Shown here: positions 10,299-46,830 of the stretch, one piece after another
How the letters are laid out: each line of letters opens with the position of its first letter
Position numbering within the stretch: position 1 is the stretch's first letter
DNA from: Candidatus Woesearchaeota archaeon
GTDB taxonomy: Archaea; Nanobdellota; Nanobdellia; Woesearchaeales; DSVV01
Assembly (NCBI GenBank): GCA_016192995.1
Contig: JACPTB010000008.1
Coordinates: 1-50,769 of the forward strand
DNA length: 50,769 nucleotides
Reading direction: 5' to 3'
Notes under the pieces: model-generated
Databases searched by the model: none
What the model was told of the DNA's origin: nothing
What the model saw: only the letters and a program-made list of their open reading frames with translations
Program-made: the position numbers and the translations under genes

Positions 10299-10724
10299 AT
10301 GTATCCTGGAAAAGATCATATTGGTGTTGGTTGCGGCGCTGTTATTCTTAATGAAAAGAATGAAGTTCTTTTAATGAAGCGAGGCAAAGCATGCAGAAGT
10401 AAAGTTGGGTGGTGGAGTATTCCAGGTGGAGCCGTTGAATTCTTTGAAAAGATTGAAGATGCACTGAAGCGAGAAGTTAAAGAAGAAGTAGGCTTGGATA
10501 TTGAAATTATTAAAACACTTTGTTTAACTGAATATTTCAATAAAGAAGAGGGTCAGCATTGGGTTTCTCCCCAATACCTCTGCAAAATAATGAGTGGAAC
10601 TATTGAAAATAAAGAACCTGAAAAATGTGAAGAGATCGCATGGTTCAACCTTGACAAACTTCCTGAGAAATTAGTGTTTCCTGCAGTGAATGCATTAGAT
10701 GCATTAAAAAACAATAGTACGTAA
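10299..10724 (+). CDS. Nudix hydrolase
   Basis: 141 residues. The full Nudix box is present: GG-AVEFFE ... LKREVKEEVGLDI, matching GX5EX7REUXEEXGU at about residues 45-67. These enzymes hydrolyse nucleoside diphosphates linked to another group, often for sanitation of modified nucleotides; the substrate is not predictable. The family A element copy 2 starts at 10717, inside the coding frame, and provides the present stop codon (TAA at 10722-10724). Without the element the frame would run on for about seven other codons into downstream DNA. The C-terminal change is minor and outside the catalytic fold. Confidence 0.9.
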   Translation: MYPGKDHIGVGCGAVILNEKNEVLLMKRGKACRSKVGWWSIPGGAVEFFEKIEDALKREVKEEVGLDIEIIKTLCLTEYFNKEEGQHWVSPQYLCKIMSGTIENKEPEKCEEIAWFNLDKLPEKLVFPAVNALDALKNNST

Positions 10725-10871
10725 TAAGTCCTCCTTAGGTTTTAGCGCCGGTTCAGCTTTTGAAGTGTTCTTCAATTGGATTTTTCTCTCTGGAACTCCG
10801 AAAAATCCTCAATGCGCTAAATCTTAGAGCTTCACAAAAGTAGGCGCTAAAACCCCAGACTTATTACGTAC
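10717..10871 (+). mobile_element. Family A nested-hairpin element, copy 2
   Basis: 155 bp, with outer arms GTACGTAATAAGTC/GACTTATTACGTAC, middle arms GGTTTTAGCGCC/GGCGCTAAAACC, and the apical stem GGATTTTTC/GAAAAATCC around TCTCTGGAACTCC. It is flanked by AAACAATA (10709-10716) and TAACAATA (10872-10879), a 7-of-8 match. The sequence between the right apical stem and the middle arm has diverged from copy 1. It sits at the very end of the Nudix gene. Confidence 0.85.
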
Positions 10872-11439: not shown

Positions 11440-11498
11440 AGGCTCTATCCCAAATCTCGGCATAGCCTCGGTTTTGGTGCCGTGATTTGGGACAGAGC
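11440..11498 (+). mobile_element. Minimal 59-bp family C element
   Basis: The outer arms GGCTCTATCCCAAATC and GATTTGGGACAGAGCC pair with one mismatch. Between them is an inner hairpin CGGCAT/GTGCCG enclosing the family C core word CCTCGGTTTTG. It is flanked by TTTTGGCA (11432-11439) and TTTTGACA (11499-11506), a 7-of-8 direct repeat. It shares its left half almost exactly with the longer C copies at 14253 and 24066 but lacks their central part. It lies 27 bp after the stop codon at 11413. Confidence 0.75.
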
Positions 11499-11539
11499 CT
11501 TTTGACATATATCTTTATAAATAAACTCCTTTTTCTTTA

Positions 11540-12304: not shown

Positions 12305-13057
12305 ATGGCTATTCAGGCAACAATCACACCAGGTATAGAATTAATAGATTTAGGAATCTATCTTCAAAAACACCATGCAGTTGTTATTTCAGATATTCAC
12401 CTGGGTTTTGAAGAAGCAATGAAGGGTGTTATGCTGCCAAGATTTCAATTAGTTGATACTATACAACGGCTTGATAAAATATTTGGTGAAATTAAGACAA
12501 AATTTAACAAAAAGGTTCTTGAAAAGATTGTAATTACCGGCGATTTAAAGCATGAATTTGGAAAGATTCTTGTCCAAGAATGGCGAAATGTGCTGAAATT
12601 TATTGATTATCTACAACAACATTGTCATGAGATTGTCCTTATCAAAGGCAACCACGATATTATGCTTGATCCTGTTTTAAAAAAAAGAACATTAACGTAT
12701 GTTGATTATGTTAAAATAGATGATATTCTTATATGTCATGGCGATGCAATTAAAGAAAAAGAAATGACCAAAGAGATTAACACCATTATTATTGGTCATG
12801 AACATTGCGCCATTGGATTGCAGAAAGGAAATAGAATTGAGCGATATAAATGCTTTCTTGTCGGCACCTTTAAAAAAAGAATGCTTATTGCAATGCCTTC
12901 ATTGAATTTATTAACTATTGGCACTGATGTTCTTCATTATGATCTCCTCAGTCCCTATCTGCAAGGCAATATTGATAATTTTAAAGTATATATTGTTGAA
13001 GACACTGTTTATGACTTTGGCACTATCAAATCGATTAAACATTTAAATAACCTATAA
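12305..13057 (+). CDS. Metallophosphoesterase (COG1407-like)
   Basis: 250 residues. The calcineurin-like motifs occur in order: SDIHLGFEEAM, GDLKHEFG, KGNHDIML, ICHGDAI and IGHEHCAIG, forming the two-metal centre. The extra GFEEAM after DIHLG is typical of archaeal COG1407 proteins, often encoded near DNA or RNA helicases; here a Ski2-like helicase follows about 1.4 kb downstream. The target may be nucleotides or nucleic acid, which is unresolved. Its last codons (AAC CTA TAA) lie inside a 58-bp perfect palindrome. Confidence 0.85.
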   Translation: MAIQATITPGIELIDLGIYLQKHHAVVISDIHLGFEEAMKGVMLPRFQLVDTIQRLDKIFGEIKTKFNKKVLEKIVITGDLKHEFGKILVQEWRNVLKFIDYLQQHCHEIVLIKGNHDIMLDPVLKKRTLTYVDYVKIDDILICHGDAIKEKEMTKEINTIIIGHEHCAIGLQKGNRIERYKCFLVGTFKKRMLIAMPSLNLLTIGTDVLHYDLLSPYLQGNIDNFKVYIVEDTVYDFGTIKSIKHLNNL

Positions 13058-13103
13058 TTAAAGAGTACATTATGCATAATGTACTCTTTAATTATAGGTT
13101 ATT
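13046..13103. repeat. 58-bp perfect palindrome spanning a gene junction
   Basis: Every base from 13046 to 13103 pairs with its mirror partner about a centre between 13074 and 13075, with no spacer. The left half contains the last four codons and stop of the phosphoesterase. The right half encodes the first residues of the lipoprotein, whose ATG (13072-13074) is at the exact centre. It may be a strong hairpin, a recent inverted duplication, or an assembly or amplification artefact. Confidence 0.9.
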
Positions 13104-13605: not shown

Positions 13606-14248
13606 AGAGAACTTTGCAAAATACTCGCAAAGCTCGGGTTACTGCCAGTTCGCATTGAGATCTCTGTTTAACAAAGCAATTTTCTCTCTGGAACCTCGAA
13701 AATTGCCCGATAAGTCTTTCGAAAATGCTCACGAAATTGGCAGTAACCATAATTTTGCAAAGTTCTCTAAAACAAGATCATTTTATACACCATTATTCAT
13801 TTCAATCTTGCTTGTCTTAATTATTTTTCTTGCAGGCTGCAAGTCTCAAGAACACAAAGAAATACCATTGTCTTCATTGCAGGACCTCTTTAAAAAATCA
13901 TTAAAATCTGAATGTACCTATACTGATCCTGACGGCAATAAAGGAAAAGTTTTCTCTGATGGTTTCCACTACAGAATTGAAACTAATAATCCTAACCTTG
14001 GAATGTTGGTGACAATCTATCATGATAGTGCTTTGTATTCTTTCAGTCCTGATCAAAAAATAGGAACAGTTCTCAATCTCTCTTTACTTCCTTCGCTGGA
14101 TGCTTCAGAATCTCTGTCTTATTTTAATATTAAAAATACCGATTTCAAATGTGTTACAGCATCGTTATCCGATGAATTATTTCTCGTTCCTCAAGATATA
14201 GTTGTCAAAGATGTAACAGGGGAATTTAAAGGATATGTCGATGACTAA
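13586..14248 (+). CDS. Lipoprotein, paralogue 2, with element-derived N-terminus
   Basis: The frame opens at ATG 13586, overlapping the end of the previous gene, and reads straight through the family B element (13606-13768). The first ~60 residues are therefore element translation (for example NFAKYSQSSGYCQFA). A true signal segment follows, FYTPLFISILLVLIIFLAGC, with lipobox LAGC. The mature domain mirrors paralogue 1: SECTYTDPDGNKGKVFS, YRIETNNPNLGMLVTIY, SDELFLVPQDI. No ATG, GTG or TTG lies between the element and the signal segment, so insertion seems to have removed the native start. Either the long fusion is made, or the gene is broken. Confidence 0.55.
   Translation: MATLQPKENFAKYSQSSGYCQFALRSLFNKAIFSLEPRKLPDKSFENAHEIGSNHNFAKFSKTRSFYTPLFISILLVLIIFLAGCKSQEHKEIPLSSLQDLFKKSLKSECTYTDPDGNKGKVFSDGFHYRIETNNPNLGMLVTIYHDSALYSFSPDQKIGTVLNLSLLPSLDASESLSYFNIKNTDFKCVTASLSDELFLVPQDIVVKDVTGEFKGYVDD
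13606..13768 (+). repeat. Family B nested-hairpin element, copy 1
   Basis: 163 bp. The outer arms AGAGAACTTTGCAAAAT and ATTTTGCAAAGTTCTCT are a perfect 17-bp inverted repeat. The middle arms GGTTACTGCCA/TGGCAGTAACC pair perfectly. The apical stem GCAATTTTC (13676-13684)/GAAAATTGC (13698-13706) encloses TCTCTGGAACCTC. No convincing 8-bp flanking duplication is seen. It starts directly after the stop of lipoprotein 1. Confidence 0.85.
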
Positions 14249-14252
14249 ACAG

Positions 14253-14415
14253 GGGCTCCGGTGAAAATCTCGGCATAGCCTCGGTTTTGGTGCCGTGATT
14301 ATCCCACTTATTGATAAAAAGGAAAAAATTCCCATTGTAATTTCCTTTTTTCTCACTCATTAATTTGAAGGATAATCACCAGCATGGCACCAAAAACTAC
14401 ATTTTCACCGAACCC
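14253..14415 (+). mobile_element. Family C nested-hairpin element, copy 1
   Basis: 163 bp, ends uncertain by 1-2 bp. Outer arms GGTGAAAAT/ATTTTCACC; middle arms TTTTGGTGCC and TGATTATCC against GGATAATCA and TGGCACCAAAA; central hairpin AAGGAAA..AATT/AATTTCCTTTTT around CCCATTGT. It is flanked by CTAAACAG at 14245-14252 and 14416-14423; the direct repeat extends to 10 bp as CTAAACAGGG. It lies 5 bp after the stop of lipoprotein 2 and just before the helicase promoter. Confidence 0.8.
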
Positions 14416-18703: not shown

Positions 18704-19447
18704 ATGGCAAACTTTTGGAAACTAGTTAATGAAGTTATCGACAGAGCTGACCTTTTGTTAATAGTATTAGATGCTCGGCTTGTTGATGAAACACGAAATA
18801 TAGAATTAGAAAAAAAAATAACTGTAAAGGGCAAGCCCTTTATCTTAGTATTAAACAAATGCGATCTTACTTCTAAGGAATACCTTGAGAAAAAGAAAAA
18901 AACCTTGAAAAATGCTGTTTTTATTTCTTCATTGCAACATTTAGGCACTACCATGTTGCGGGATAAAATATTTGCTACAGCTAAAAAGAAAAAAAATGAG
19001 AAAATAACTGTTGGTGTTGTTGGATATCCTAATACCGGCAAAAGCTCGGTGATTAATGCCTTAAAAGGACAGAAATCAGCTCCTGCATCTTCGCAAAGCG
19101 GTTATACTAAAGCCATACAGCTTGTTAGAGCTGATAATAGAATTTATTTGATTGATACTCCGGGAGTAATTCCTTTTGAAGAAAAAGATCAGATTAAGCA
19201 TGCATTAATGGGTGCAATAGATGCAACAAAAGTCAAAGATCCTGATGTTGCAGCGATGAGGTTAATTGAGATTCTTGAAGGAAAAGCAGAAGCTCATTAT
19301 GGTTTAGAAAAGCAATCAGATAGTGAAGTTGCATTAGAAAAAATAGCAAAAAAGCTTAACAAACTTAAAAAACACAACGAACTTGATCTTGAACTTGTCG
19401 GAAGGCTTATTCTTCAGGACTGGCAAAAAGGAAAGATAAAGCTATAA
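18704..19447 (+). CDS. Circularly permuted GTPase (YlqF/RbgA-like)
   Basis: 247 residues. The G motifs occur in permuted order: G4 LNKCDL, then G5-like FISSLQ, G1 GYPNTGKSSVINAL, G2 region SQSGYTKAIQLV and G3 LIDTPGVIPF. That order defines the YlqF/YawG class, which acts in ribosome assembly. The N-terminal VIDRADLLLIVLDARLVDETRN is also typical. It begins right after the antitoxin stop, so it may be co-transcribed with the toxin-antitoxin pair. The family A copy 3 element starts 3 bp after its stop. Confidence 0.9.
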   Translation: MANFWKLVNEVIDRADLLLIVLDARLVDETRNIELEKKITVKGKPFILVLNKCDLTSKEYLEKKKKTLKNAVFISSLQHLGTTMLRDKIFATAKKKKNEKITVGVVGYPNTGKSSVINALKGQKSAPASSQSGYTKAIQLVRADNRIYLIDTPGVIPFEEKDQIKHALMGAIDATKVKDPDVAAMRLIEILEGKAEAHYGLEKQSDSEVALEKIAKKLNKLKKHNELDLELVGRLILQDWQKGKIKL

Positions 19448-19450
19448 TTA

Positions 19451-19602
19451 GTACCTATTAAGTCTGGGGTTTTAGCGCCTACCTTTGTGAAGCTCTTCTT
19501 AATTTCACTTCGGGGATTTTTCGGAGTGCCAGAGAGAAAAATCCCCGAAGTACTCTTCAAAAGCTGAACCGGCGCTAAAACCATGGAAGACTTAATAGGT
19601 AC
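19451..19602 (-). mobile_element. Family A nested-hairpin element, copy 3 (inverted)
   Basis: 152 bp, opposite orientation to the other A copies. Its outer arms are GTACCTATTAAGTC and GACTTAATAGGTAC: both positions that differ from the other copies have changed on both arms, so pairing is kept. The apical stem is extended (GGGGATTTTTC/GAAAAATCCCC) and the loop is TCTCTGGCACTCC. Flanks TATAATTA (19443-19450) and TACAATCA (19603-19610) match at 6 of 8 positions. Confidence 0.8.
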
Positions 19603-19618
19603 TACAATCAAATATCAT

Positions 19619-28768: not shown

Positions 28769-28931
28769 AGAGAACTTTGCAAAATACTCGCAAAGCTCGG
28801 GTTACTGCCAGTTCGCATGGAGATATATCTTTAACAAAGCAATTTTCTCTCTGGAACCTCGAAAATTGCTTGATATACATTTCGAAAATGCTCACAAAAT
28901 CGGCAGTAACCATAATTTTGCAAAGTTCTCC
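28769..28931 (-). repeat. Family B nested-hairpin element, copy 2
   Basis: 163 bp with AGAGAACTTTGCAAAAT at one end and ATTTTGCAAAGTTCTCC at the other, middle arms GGTTACTGCC/GGCAGTAACC, and apical stem GCAATTTTC/GAAAATTGC around TCTCTGGAACCTC. The sequence is written in the same orientation as copy 1, but it is assigned to the minus strand because it abuts the stop codon of the minus-strand gene that ends at 28932. No flanking duplication is seen. Confidence 0.8.
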
Positions 28932-44649: not shown

Positions 44650-44811
44650 GAGAACTTTGCAAAATTATGGTTACTGCCAAAATGGTGAGCATTTTCGAAA
44701 TACTTATTGAGCAATTTTCAGAGTTCCAGAGAGAAAATTGCTTTGTTAAATGGAAATCTCAATGCGAACTGGCAGTAACCCGAGCTATGCGAGTATTTTG
44801 CAAAGTTCTCT
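44650..44811 (-). repeat. Family B nested-hairpin element, copy 3 (inverted)
   Basis: 162 bp, opposite orientation to copies 1 and 2. Outer arms AGAGAACTTTGCAAAAT and ATTTTGCAAAGTTCTCT complete; middle arms GGTTACTGCCA/TGGCAGTAACC; apical GCAATTTTC/GAAAATTGC around TCTCTGGAACTCT. The frame that is open in copies 1 and 2 has a TGA here, so the element is not maintained as a protein. No clear flanking duplication. It starts 2 bp after the stop at 44648. Confidence 0.8.
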
Positions 44812-45626: not shown

Positions 45627-45670
45627 CTTAGGAATAATTAGGTAGTTATTTAAAAGGTTTACGTAAATCT

Positions 45671-45860
45671 GGCACAATCCAATTTGTAAGTGATATTGCG
45701 AAAAGTGCCACCATCTTTTTTGCGAGGCTCTTCTTATCTTTCATCGAGTGCTATCCGAGGTTCCAGAGAGGATAGCACAATCGATAACTGCATCTTAAGC
45801 CGAGCCGATGGTGGCTGCCGAAAGCATTTTCGCAATATCACTCGTTTTTTGGATTGTGCC
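45671..45860 (-). mobile_element. Complete family D nested-hairpin element
   Basis: 190 bp. The outer arms GGCACAATCC (45671-45680)/GGATTGTGCC (45851-45860) and inner arms AGTGATATTGCGAAAA (45689-45704)/TTTTCGCAATATCACT (45827-45842) are perfect inverted repeats. GCCACCATC/GATGGTGGC forms a further stem. The apical stem GTGCTATCC/GGATAGCAC (45748-45778) encloses TCTCTGGAACCTC on the minus strand. It is flanked by GTAAATCT at 45663-45670 and 45861-45868, a perfect 8-bp duplication. Confidence 0.9.
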
Positions 45861-45868
45861 GTAAATCT

Positions 45869-46023
45869 GTACGTAATAAGTCCCCTTTTGGTTTTAGCGC
45901 CGGTTCAACTTTTTAAGTGGATTTCGGTTGGATTTTTCTCTCTGGAACTCCGAAAAATCCTCACAGCAAATATAAGAAAAGCTTCACAAAAGTAGGTGCT
46001 AAAACTCCAGACTTATTACGTAC
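45869..46023 (+). mobile_element. Family A nested-hairpin element, copy 4
   Basis: 155 bp, arms as in copy 1 (GTACGTAATAAGTC/GACTTATTACGTAC) with apical GGATTTTTC/GAAAAATCC around TCTCTGGAACTCC. One middle-arm position has diverged (GGTGCTAAAAC). It is flanked by GTAAATCT at 45861-45868 and 46024-46031, a perfect 8-bp duplication whose left copy is also the right flank of the adjoining D element. It lies 6 bp after the stop of the minus-strand gene ending at 46030. Confidence 0.9.
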
Positions 46024-46029
46024 GTAAAT

Positions 46030-46830
46030 CTATACCTTTCTTCCGCATACTGCATTCATTGCAGCAATAAACTCCTTGGCATCAGTTATCATTTTATCTA
46101 ATTGCTCGCCTTTAATCTCTTTTAGTTCTCGGTGAAGTATTTTTTTAGAGATATCATAAAATTTTCTCAACATTTCAGGATATTTTTTATCCAATTTATT
46201 GGTTTTTACAAATCGTTCGTATAATTTATCAGCAGTTCCTTGCGGTGTTGCAGGAATTTCACCAGCATGCATTAATGCAGCATGAGCGCAATCCATTACT
46301 GCCCAATATAAATCCATAACGCCCTGCATCATTCTTGATCTGGCGCTGTAATATGCTGCCTTGCTTTTCCCAAAATAAGCATTGACTGATTCTGGTGTTG
46401 GTCGTATTCTTCCTTCAAATAATAATAATTGCAAGGGAAAGACAAAACCTGTGTCAATTAATCCAACGCCTGATCTGAGCATATTCATAATGATAGGATC
46501 ACCAATGCGGACATATTCCCAAAAACTGGTAAGCCTTAATGTAGTTATATGCAATCTATTTGAGGTTTCAATTGCGCATTTCTCAACAATAATGCGATAT
46601 GTTTCTATAATTTCAGGAGTTAAATAAAATGAAACATTATCAACAATGATAAGAATATCAATATCTCCTTTGGTGTTCATCTGAGATCCACCGCCAAAAA
46701 TCATAATTGCACGTATAAATCCACCAAACTCATTATACACTTTAGTGCTAAAACTACGGGCAACATCATAATCCTCAGTAGTATAATTTGCTTTATAAGG
46801 AGGTTCTTTACGTTTAATCTCAGACTTCAT
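46030..46830 (-). CDS. MNT-HEPN fusion protein
   Basis: 266 residues. The N-terminal half has the minimal nucleotidyltransferase motif MIFGGGSQMNTKGDIDILIIVD (GGGS ... DID). The C-terminal half, from SVNAYFGKSKAAYYSARSRMM to DAKEFIAAM, is helical and matches a HEPN-like domain with HAALMHAGEIPATPQGTADKL. MNT and HEPN are usually separate antitoxin and toxin proteins; here they are fused. The R-x4-H RNase motif of active HEPN toxins is not obvious, so it may not be a toxin. The stop codon lies within the GTAAATCT duplication next to the family A element. Confidence 0.75.
   Translation of the reverse strand: MKSEIKRKEPPYKANYTTEDYDVARSFSTKVYNEFGGFIRAIMIFGGGSQMNTKGDIDILIIVDNVSFYLTPEIIETYRIIVEKCAIETSNRLHITTLRLTSFWEYVRIGDPIIMNMLRSGVGLIDTGFVFPLQLLLFEGRIRPTPESVNAYFGKSKAAYYSARSRMMQGVMDLYWAVMDCAHAALMHAGEIPATPQGTADKLYERFVKTNKLDKKYPEMLRKFYDISKKILHRELKEIKGEQLDKMITDAKEFIAAMNAVCGRKV

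Follow-up and report, generated by a model that had tools for sequence, protein, structure and literature searches.

Matched arm changes in a palindromic MITE-like element of an archaeal genome: a probably inherited variant, one-arm decay and a probable case of arm-to-arm copying

The 152-bp palindrome A3 is best explained here as a non-autonomous, MITE-like insertion element whose matched arms reflect transposition of an already matched source, with template switching and a constrained fold also contributing, a reading to which we assign a probability of about two in three. The feature that drew attention to this copy, two substitutions that each occur on both arms, is real but has in part an ordinary explanation. 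The first-pass annotation offered two causes for it, selection on the fold or correction of the arms by a hairpin-based step of replication or repair; both find some support, although it does not come from the outer-arm change of A3 itself. The window analyzed, a stretch of 50,769 nucleotides, is contig 8 of 16 in a 1.617-Mb Woesearchaeales-type genome, and its host is a tiny-celled archaeon.

A3 occupies positions 19451-19602 of the forward strand, has matched ends, belongs to a family with at least 40 copies, and carries its conserved core on the reverse strand. Its left outer arm, GTACCTATTAAGTC (19451-19464), is changed at 19455 and 19458, and its right outer arm, GACTTAATAGGTAC (19589-19602), is changed to match at 19598 and 19595. 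Relative to the outer arm GTACGTAATAAGTC, which all three other A copies of the window share (230-385, 10717-10871, and 45869-46023), these are G>C at 19455 with C>G at 19598 and A>T at 19458 with T>A at 19595. All 14 pairs of the outer stem are still Watson-Crick, so that the letters confirm two paired changes in an unbroken stem, as had been noted. The element begins 3 bp past the stop codon of a GTPase gene, between convergent genes, and is flanked by an 8-bp target duplication whose left copy, TATAATTA (19443-19450), includes that stop codon and is identical to the right copy, TACAATCA (19603-19610), at six of eight positions.

A3 is one of a superfamily of non-coding palindromic insertion elements, mostly 150 to 250 bp in length, commonly 152 to 166 bp, and up to about 336 bp with insertions. 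The superfamily shares several defining features of MITEs, being short, non-coding, and multicopy, with terminal inverted repeats and target duplications of fixed length. The genome has 40 or more A repeats, and the tip motif was found 168 times compared with none for the reversed pattern. Our unbiased sample comprises 850 kb including the window, about half of the genome, and genome-wide counts combine such stretches with searches; extrapolated from the density in this sample, about 310 elements would make up about 3% of the sequence. Some A copies were retrieved with the A or tip sequence as query and are thus ascertained by similarity to it. An exact 8-bp duplication flanks 31 of 64 A copies (shuffled expectation, 0.5). 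In the window, it is intact in copy 1 (TAAATATC/GATATTTA) and copy 4, or A4 (GTAAATCT), and matches at seven of eight positions in copy 2, all three of which lie on the reverse strand. A scan of the 850 kb for 14-bp matched ends with exact 8- to 9-bp duplications returned 54 matches, almost all of which belong to the superfamily; no long member that carries genes was among them. Elements lie predominantly between open reading frames (121 of 133; median distance, 44 bp). Nested elements are seen at L121:7104-7425 and L125:16679-17003, namely B within A and D within A, and each seems to have a duplication of its own.

Comparison across the A family places the change in A3 into context. Among the arm cells of 62 copies, 13 are paired, with both sides changed, and 15 are changed on one arm only. 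When right arms were shuffled among copies in 5000 trials, the mean number of paired cells was 1.7 and the maximum 7. In this larger alignment, unpaired changes do not predominate, yet they roughly equal paired ones in number, which is a mixed answer by the criterion of the first-pass annotation. Arms are matched in 29 of 31 copies with intact duplications and in 20 of 31 with decayed ones; correspondingly, unmatched arms occur in 2 of 31 and 11 of 31 (Fisher p = 0.011), a comparison to be read with the decay of the duplication as an imperfect clock; recombination between copies can remove duplications as well. The pile-up of one-arm changes in copies with decayed duplications bears out the earlier statement that random decay strikes one arm only. 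These counts are most simply read with matched variants as subfamilies inherited through transposition and unmatched arms as later decay.

The A3 variant itself, GTACCTATT, illustrates the point. The same two paired changes are present in a copy on another contig (L002, G000:C6:149976-150129), and the compensation is therefore not private to A3. The L002 copy has a perfect 8-bp target duplication, AAAAAATA, and the combination of the A3 pairs with an intact duplication indicates that it transposed in that form. The paired change thus pre-existed in a transposing source, as the mark of a subfamily, and the double change in A3 is most simply an inherited variant spread by transposition. On a tree of the element interiors, whose support is rough, A3 and L002 fall within one weakly supported clade of six and are not exact sisters. 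A related variant, GTACGTATT, requires at least two changes on this tree, and an A subfamily with these arms has an inner stem shorter by one base on each strand. For A8T, matched and one-arm states are both present, and some of the one-arm copies look recombinant.

One direct trace of arm-to-arm copying is found at the tip of A3, in a feature that the first-pass annotation had not reported. Two strands, ACTTCGGGGATTTTT (19507-19521) and AAAAATCCCCGAAGT (19537-19551), enclose the 15-nt tip loop CGGAGTGCCAGAGAG (19522-19536; CTCTCTGGCACTCCG on the core strand), which is near-invariant across the superfamily. The stem below this loop has 8 bp in 91 of 114 cores; it reaches 15 bp in A3 and exceeds 10 bp in no other core. 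Where many A copies have TTTCGATTGGATTTTT on the core strand, A3 has ACTTCGGGGATTTTT, which is shorter by two bases and is the reverse complement of the opposite side, AAAAATCCCCGAAGT; the side at 19537-19551 is the one that appears changed, or copied, on that strand. When left and right strands were combined across copies, at least 12 pairs formed in 7 of 12,882 combinations, all seven with the left strand of A3, which is the trace expected if a right strand was copied onto the left. The left tip strand of A3 finds its longest match, of 16, in the right strand of a different copy (L128). An imperfect inverted repeat has thus become more perfect in the way expected when one arm serves as template for the other, and the letters indicate that quasipalindrome template switching probably took place in the A3 tip stem, as a single case based on one copy compared with its relatives.

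Quasipalindrome template switching is documented in E. coli (PMC7202029), and template switching has been proposed for RNA stems, with stem extension among its footprints (PMC8794818). The A3 tip stem resembles such mutations in its longer perfect palindrome, with one strand copied from the other, as well as in its clustered change and its shortening by 2 nt. Unlike the quasipalindrome mutations that have been observed directly, the case in A3 is deduced from one copy and its relatives. For the outer arms of A3, an origin by template switching is compatible with the sequence. The proposal of hairpin-based correction thus gains from a footprint within the same copy, and the arm change on which it was built is compatible with it. 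As the conserved internal loops remain asymmetric, such correction cannot be rampant.

The other proposed cause, selection on the fold, can be considered in light of a core shared by elements whose arms differ. Elements that bear the tip have in common an inner stem, a GYTC/TCRC motif beside a short helix, and the hairpin loop CTCTCTGGMACYYCG. In A3, the inner stem P3 is formed by GGTTTTAGCGCC (19468-19479) and GGCGCTAAAACC (19571-19582) and covaries across families. Covariation likewise involves the short helix and the motif's Y-R pair; on the forward strand, motif and helix read GTGA followed by AGCT (19487-19494; AGCT-TCAC on the reverse strand) and AGCT followed by GAAC (19562-19569; GTTC-AGCT on the reverse strand). 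Core stems are 96 to 99% Watson-Crick compared with 63 to 77% after shuffling, with at least two pair types at most positions, and the Y-R pair is T-A in 72 cases and C-G in 18. Elements that differ in their ends and have 4-, 8-, or 9-bp duplications thus retain the folded core, which covaries strongly. Constraint on the fold is therefore supported for the inner stems, and this support does not come from the outer-arm change of A3.

Two segments of 18 to 21 nt each, not complementary to one another, separate the short helix from the tip stem. These internal loop segments are near-constant in length and hypervariable in sequence, reassort between copies, and in A copies diverge from the consensus at 24 to 35% of sites, compared with 0 to 4% for the arms, motif, and tip stem. 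A guide-like role for the segments was considered, and in the sampled half of the genome they gave no 14- to 15-nt matches beyond other copies. Further modules are present: there is a second type of tip, the tip loop can be greatly extended, and F elements have a core of another kind. The extension, of 80 to 90 nt, lies between CTCTCT and GGAAC in an A element at L095:3454-3697, and similar ones are seen in A elements of L105, L106, L111, L115, L116, L120, and L128. A related extension in an F element (L123) appears as if it were a separate module; the extension has no Rfam match.

Ends and duplications of several kinds accompany this core. Within the window, B elements with ends GAGAACTTTGCAAAAT lie at 13607-13767 (forward strand, 4-bp duplication TAAA), 28770-28930 (forward strand, duplication not visible), and 44650-44810 (reverse strand, duplication TAAA), and a C element with ends GGCACAATCC adjoins A4 at 45671-45860 (reverse strand); all have the same core. 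A D element at 14254-14415 (forward strand) has the second tip type and the 9-bp duplication CTAAACAGG. Compared with shuffled controls, duplication lengths are 8 bp for A, 4 bp for B, 8 to 9 bp for D, and 9 bp for F. In D elements, a similar interior is enclosed by ten kinds of matched arms, among them GGCTCTGGTG, GGCTTCGGTG, GGCTCTGTAG, and GGCTCTGTCCC. At 45661-46031, A4 and the C element are arranged as AGATTTAC-A4-AGATTTAC-C-AGATTTAC, and the shared target word indicates that the duplication made by one of the two served as the insertion site for the other. A minimal D-type element at 11441-11499 has arms GGCTCTATCCCAAAT/ATTTGGGACAGAGCC with only a side hairpin between them, apparently through internal deletion. 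A perfect 58-bp palindrome at 13046-13103, with 29-bp arms and no spacer, lies at the junction of two open reading frames and is unrelated to these elements.

Of 353 genomes of the order, 10 matched the tip motif, although one of these ten hits (L134) lacks the core and arose by chance; 10 other genomes of the source's own family gave no match. Pattern matches come from metagenome assemblies of Nanoarchaeota and Woesearchaeota. Two matches in a viral collection were rejected as chance, as the core is absent from both. A genome of another family in the same order (G245) contains A-like elements with GTAAGTAATATGTC on both arms and their own duplications. The same genome has elements with GGCGTTATTGAAAAGT-type ends around a third, unrelated-looking core (L171:1352-1516 and L175), from which it follows that ends and cores may combine freely.

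How the elements are moved can be approached through their ends. It could be argued that transposition by end-specific enzymes is sufficient, each arm variant being the site of a different transposase lineage and pairing a by-product that requires no hairpin step. Matched ends and fixed duplications of 4, 8, and 9 bp do point to transposases, and the occurrence of GGCGTTATTGAAAAG ends in several genomes of the order is expected if a specific enzyme reads them; the different duplication lengths of B, A, and D elements around one core suggest more than one transposase. However, HMM searches for four DDE families, namely IS1595, IS6/IS240, DDE_Tnp_1, and Mutator-type transposases, found none in the element's own genome, and transposases of these families in relatives are not flanked by the ends of these elements. 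No autonomous partner is present in the 850 kb. Furthermore, the variation of D arms around a similar interior is the reverse of the usual end-only recognition, the inner stems covary as well as the ends, and the A3 tip stem is unaccounted for, so we regard this explanation as rather unlikely. Genome G193 encodes, in a single copy at L151:904-2046, an IS6/IS240-like transposase of 380 aa that has a zinc ribbon as well as a SWIM-like motif; it has no recognizable inverted ends and is possibly domesticated or trans-acting.

If the core rather than the ends were recognized, an enzyme might read the fold and cut at the base of the hairpin, leaving the arms to vary freely while pairing. The single core with several unrelated ends would be in keeping with this, as would the segments of fixed length and free sequence and a tip stem and motif that stay near-invariant beside them. 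Duplication lengths that differ by element type nevertheless suggest more than one enzyme, the same ends occur on elements with other cores, and no enzyme of this kind is known, which leaves the idea highly improbable. A related notion, in which the shared DNA core, with its hypervariable internal loop of fixed size and its near-invariant tip loop, is read as structure during mobilization and the arms are rematched in each round by hairpin-templated copying, seems to us distinctly unlikely; if true, one core would serve very different but always complementary ends. It is quite improbable, too, that the paired changes represent classical compensation in a structured RNA made from the core strand. 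Covariation and the conserved loop and motif would fit such an RNA; against it, folding energy is equal for both strands, mismatches are without strand asymmetry (12 G.T and 14 A.C), orientation between co-directional genes is split 39 to 26, and the copies spread as insertions, as their target duplications show. Pairing was not conserved in the strand-specific manner of tolerated G-U pairs on one strand, and an Rfam search of the element gave nothing at the gathering score. Chance or an assembly artifact in copy 3 is barely credible: the assembly is in multiple contigs, but the identical variant lies on another contig and paired cells far exceed those obtained by shuffling.

For our preferred reading, in which transposition, template switching, and fold constraint act together, the following course can be proposed. 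A transposase acting in trans on A elements would have inserted A3 beside the stop codon, duplicating 8 bp of target. In an ancestral copy, one arm may have mutated and the other then been rewritten from it as replication switched templates inside the hairpin; alternatively, selection may have kept only matched arms. Transposition would multiply the matched form, and the arms would later lose their match one side at a time while the duplication decays. Inner stems and loops would in addition be constrained to keep the fold, which probably serves mobility; the constrained molecule is more likely DNA than a one-strand RNA.

Matched changes in inverted repeats are often taken as proof of selection on the fold. 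Here, a single genome allows three processes to be separated, namely transposition of a matched variant, one-arm decay after insertion, for which the target duplication serves as a timer, and arm-to-arm copying. The analysis also reveals a modular hairpin superfamily that makes up about 3% of an archaeal genome, with a core common to elements of 4-, 8-, and 9-bp duplications, for which no earlier description was found in the literature searched. REP units are much shorter and are linked to tyrosine transposases. Unlike REP, whole elements here are about 160 bp with clear target duplications; the interspersed palindromic modules in many combinations are similar to the REP/BIME elements of bacteria (mentioned in PMC2817692). 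A parallel may also be drawn with the prokaryotic MITEs, including Correia elements, ERIC, and QMITE2 (reviewed in PMC10969869), which are likewise under 500 bp, non-coding, mostly intergenic, and of high copy number, with inverted ends, a hairpin fold, and target duplications that fade with age. In contrast to those MITEs, the elements described here have no autonomous relative in the sequence and transposase families searched (850 kb; four families), and they combine a conserved folded core with differing ends and duplication lengths, the ends varying as matched pairs.
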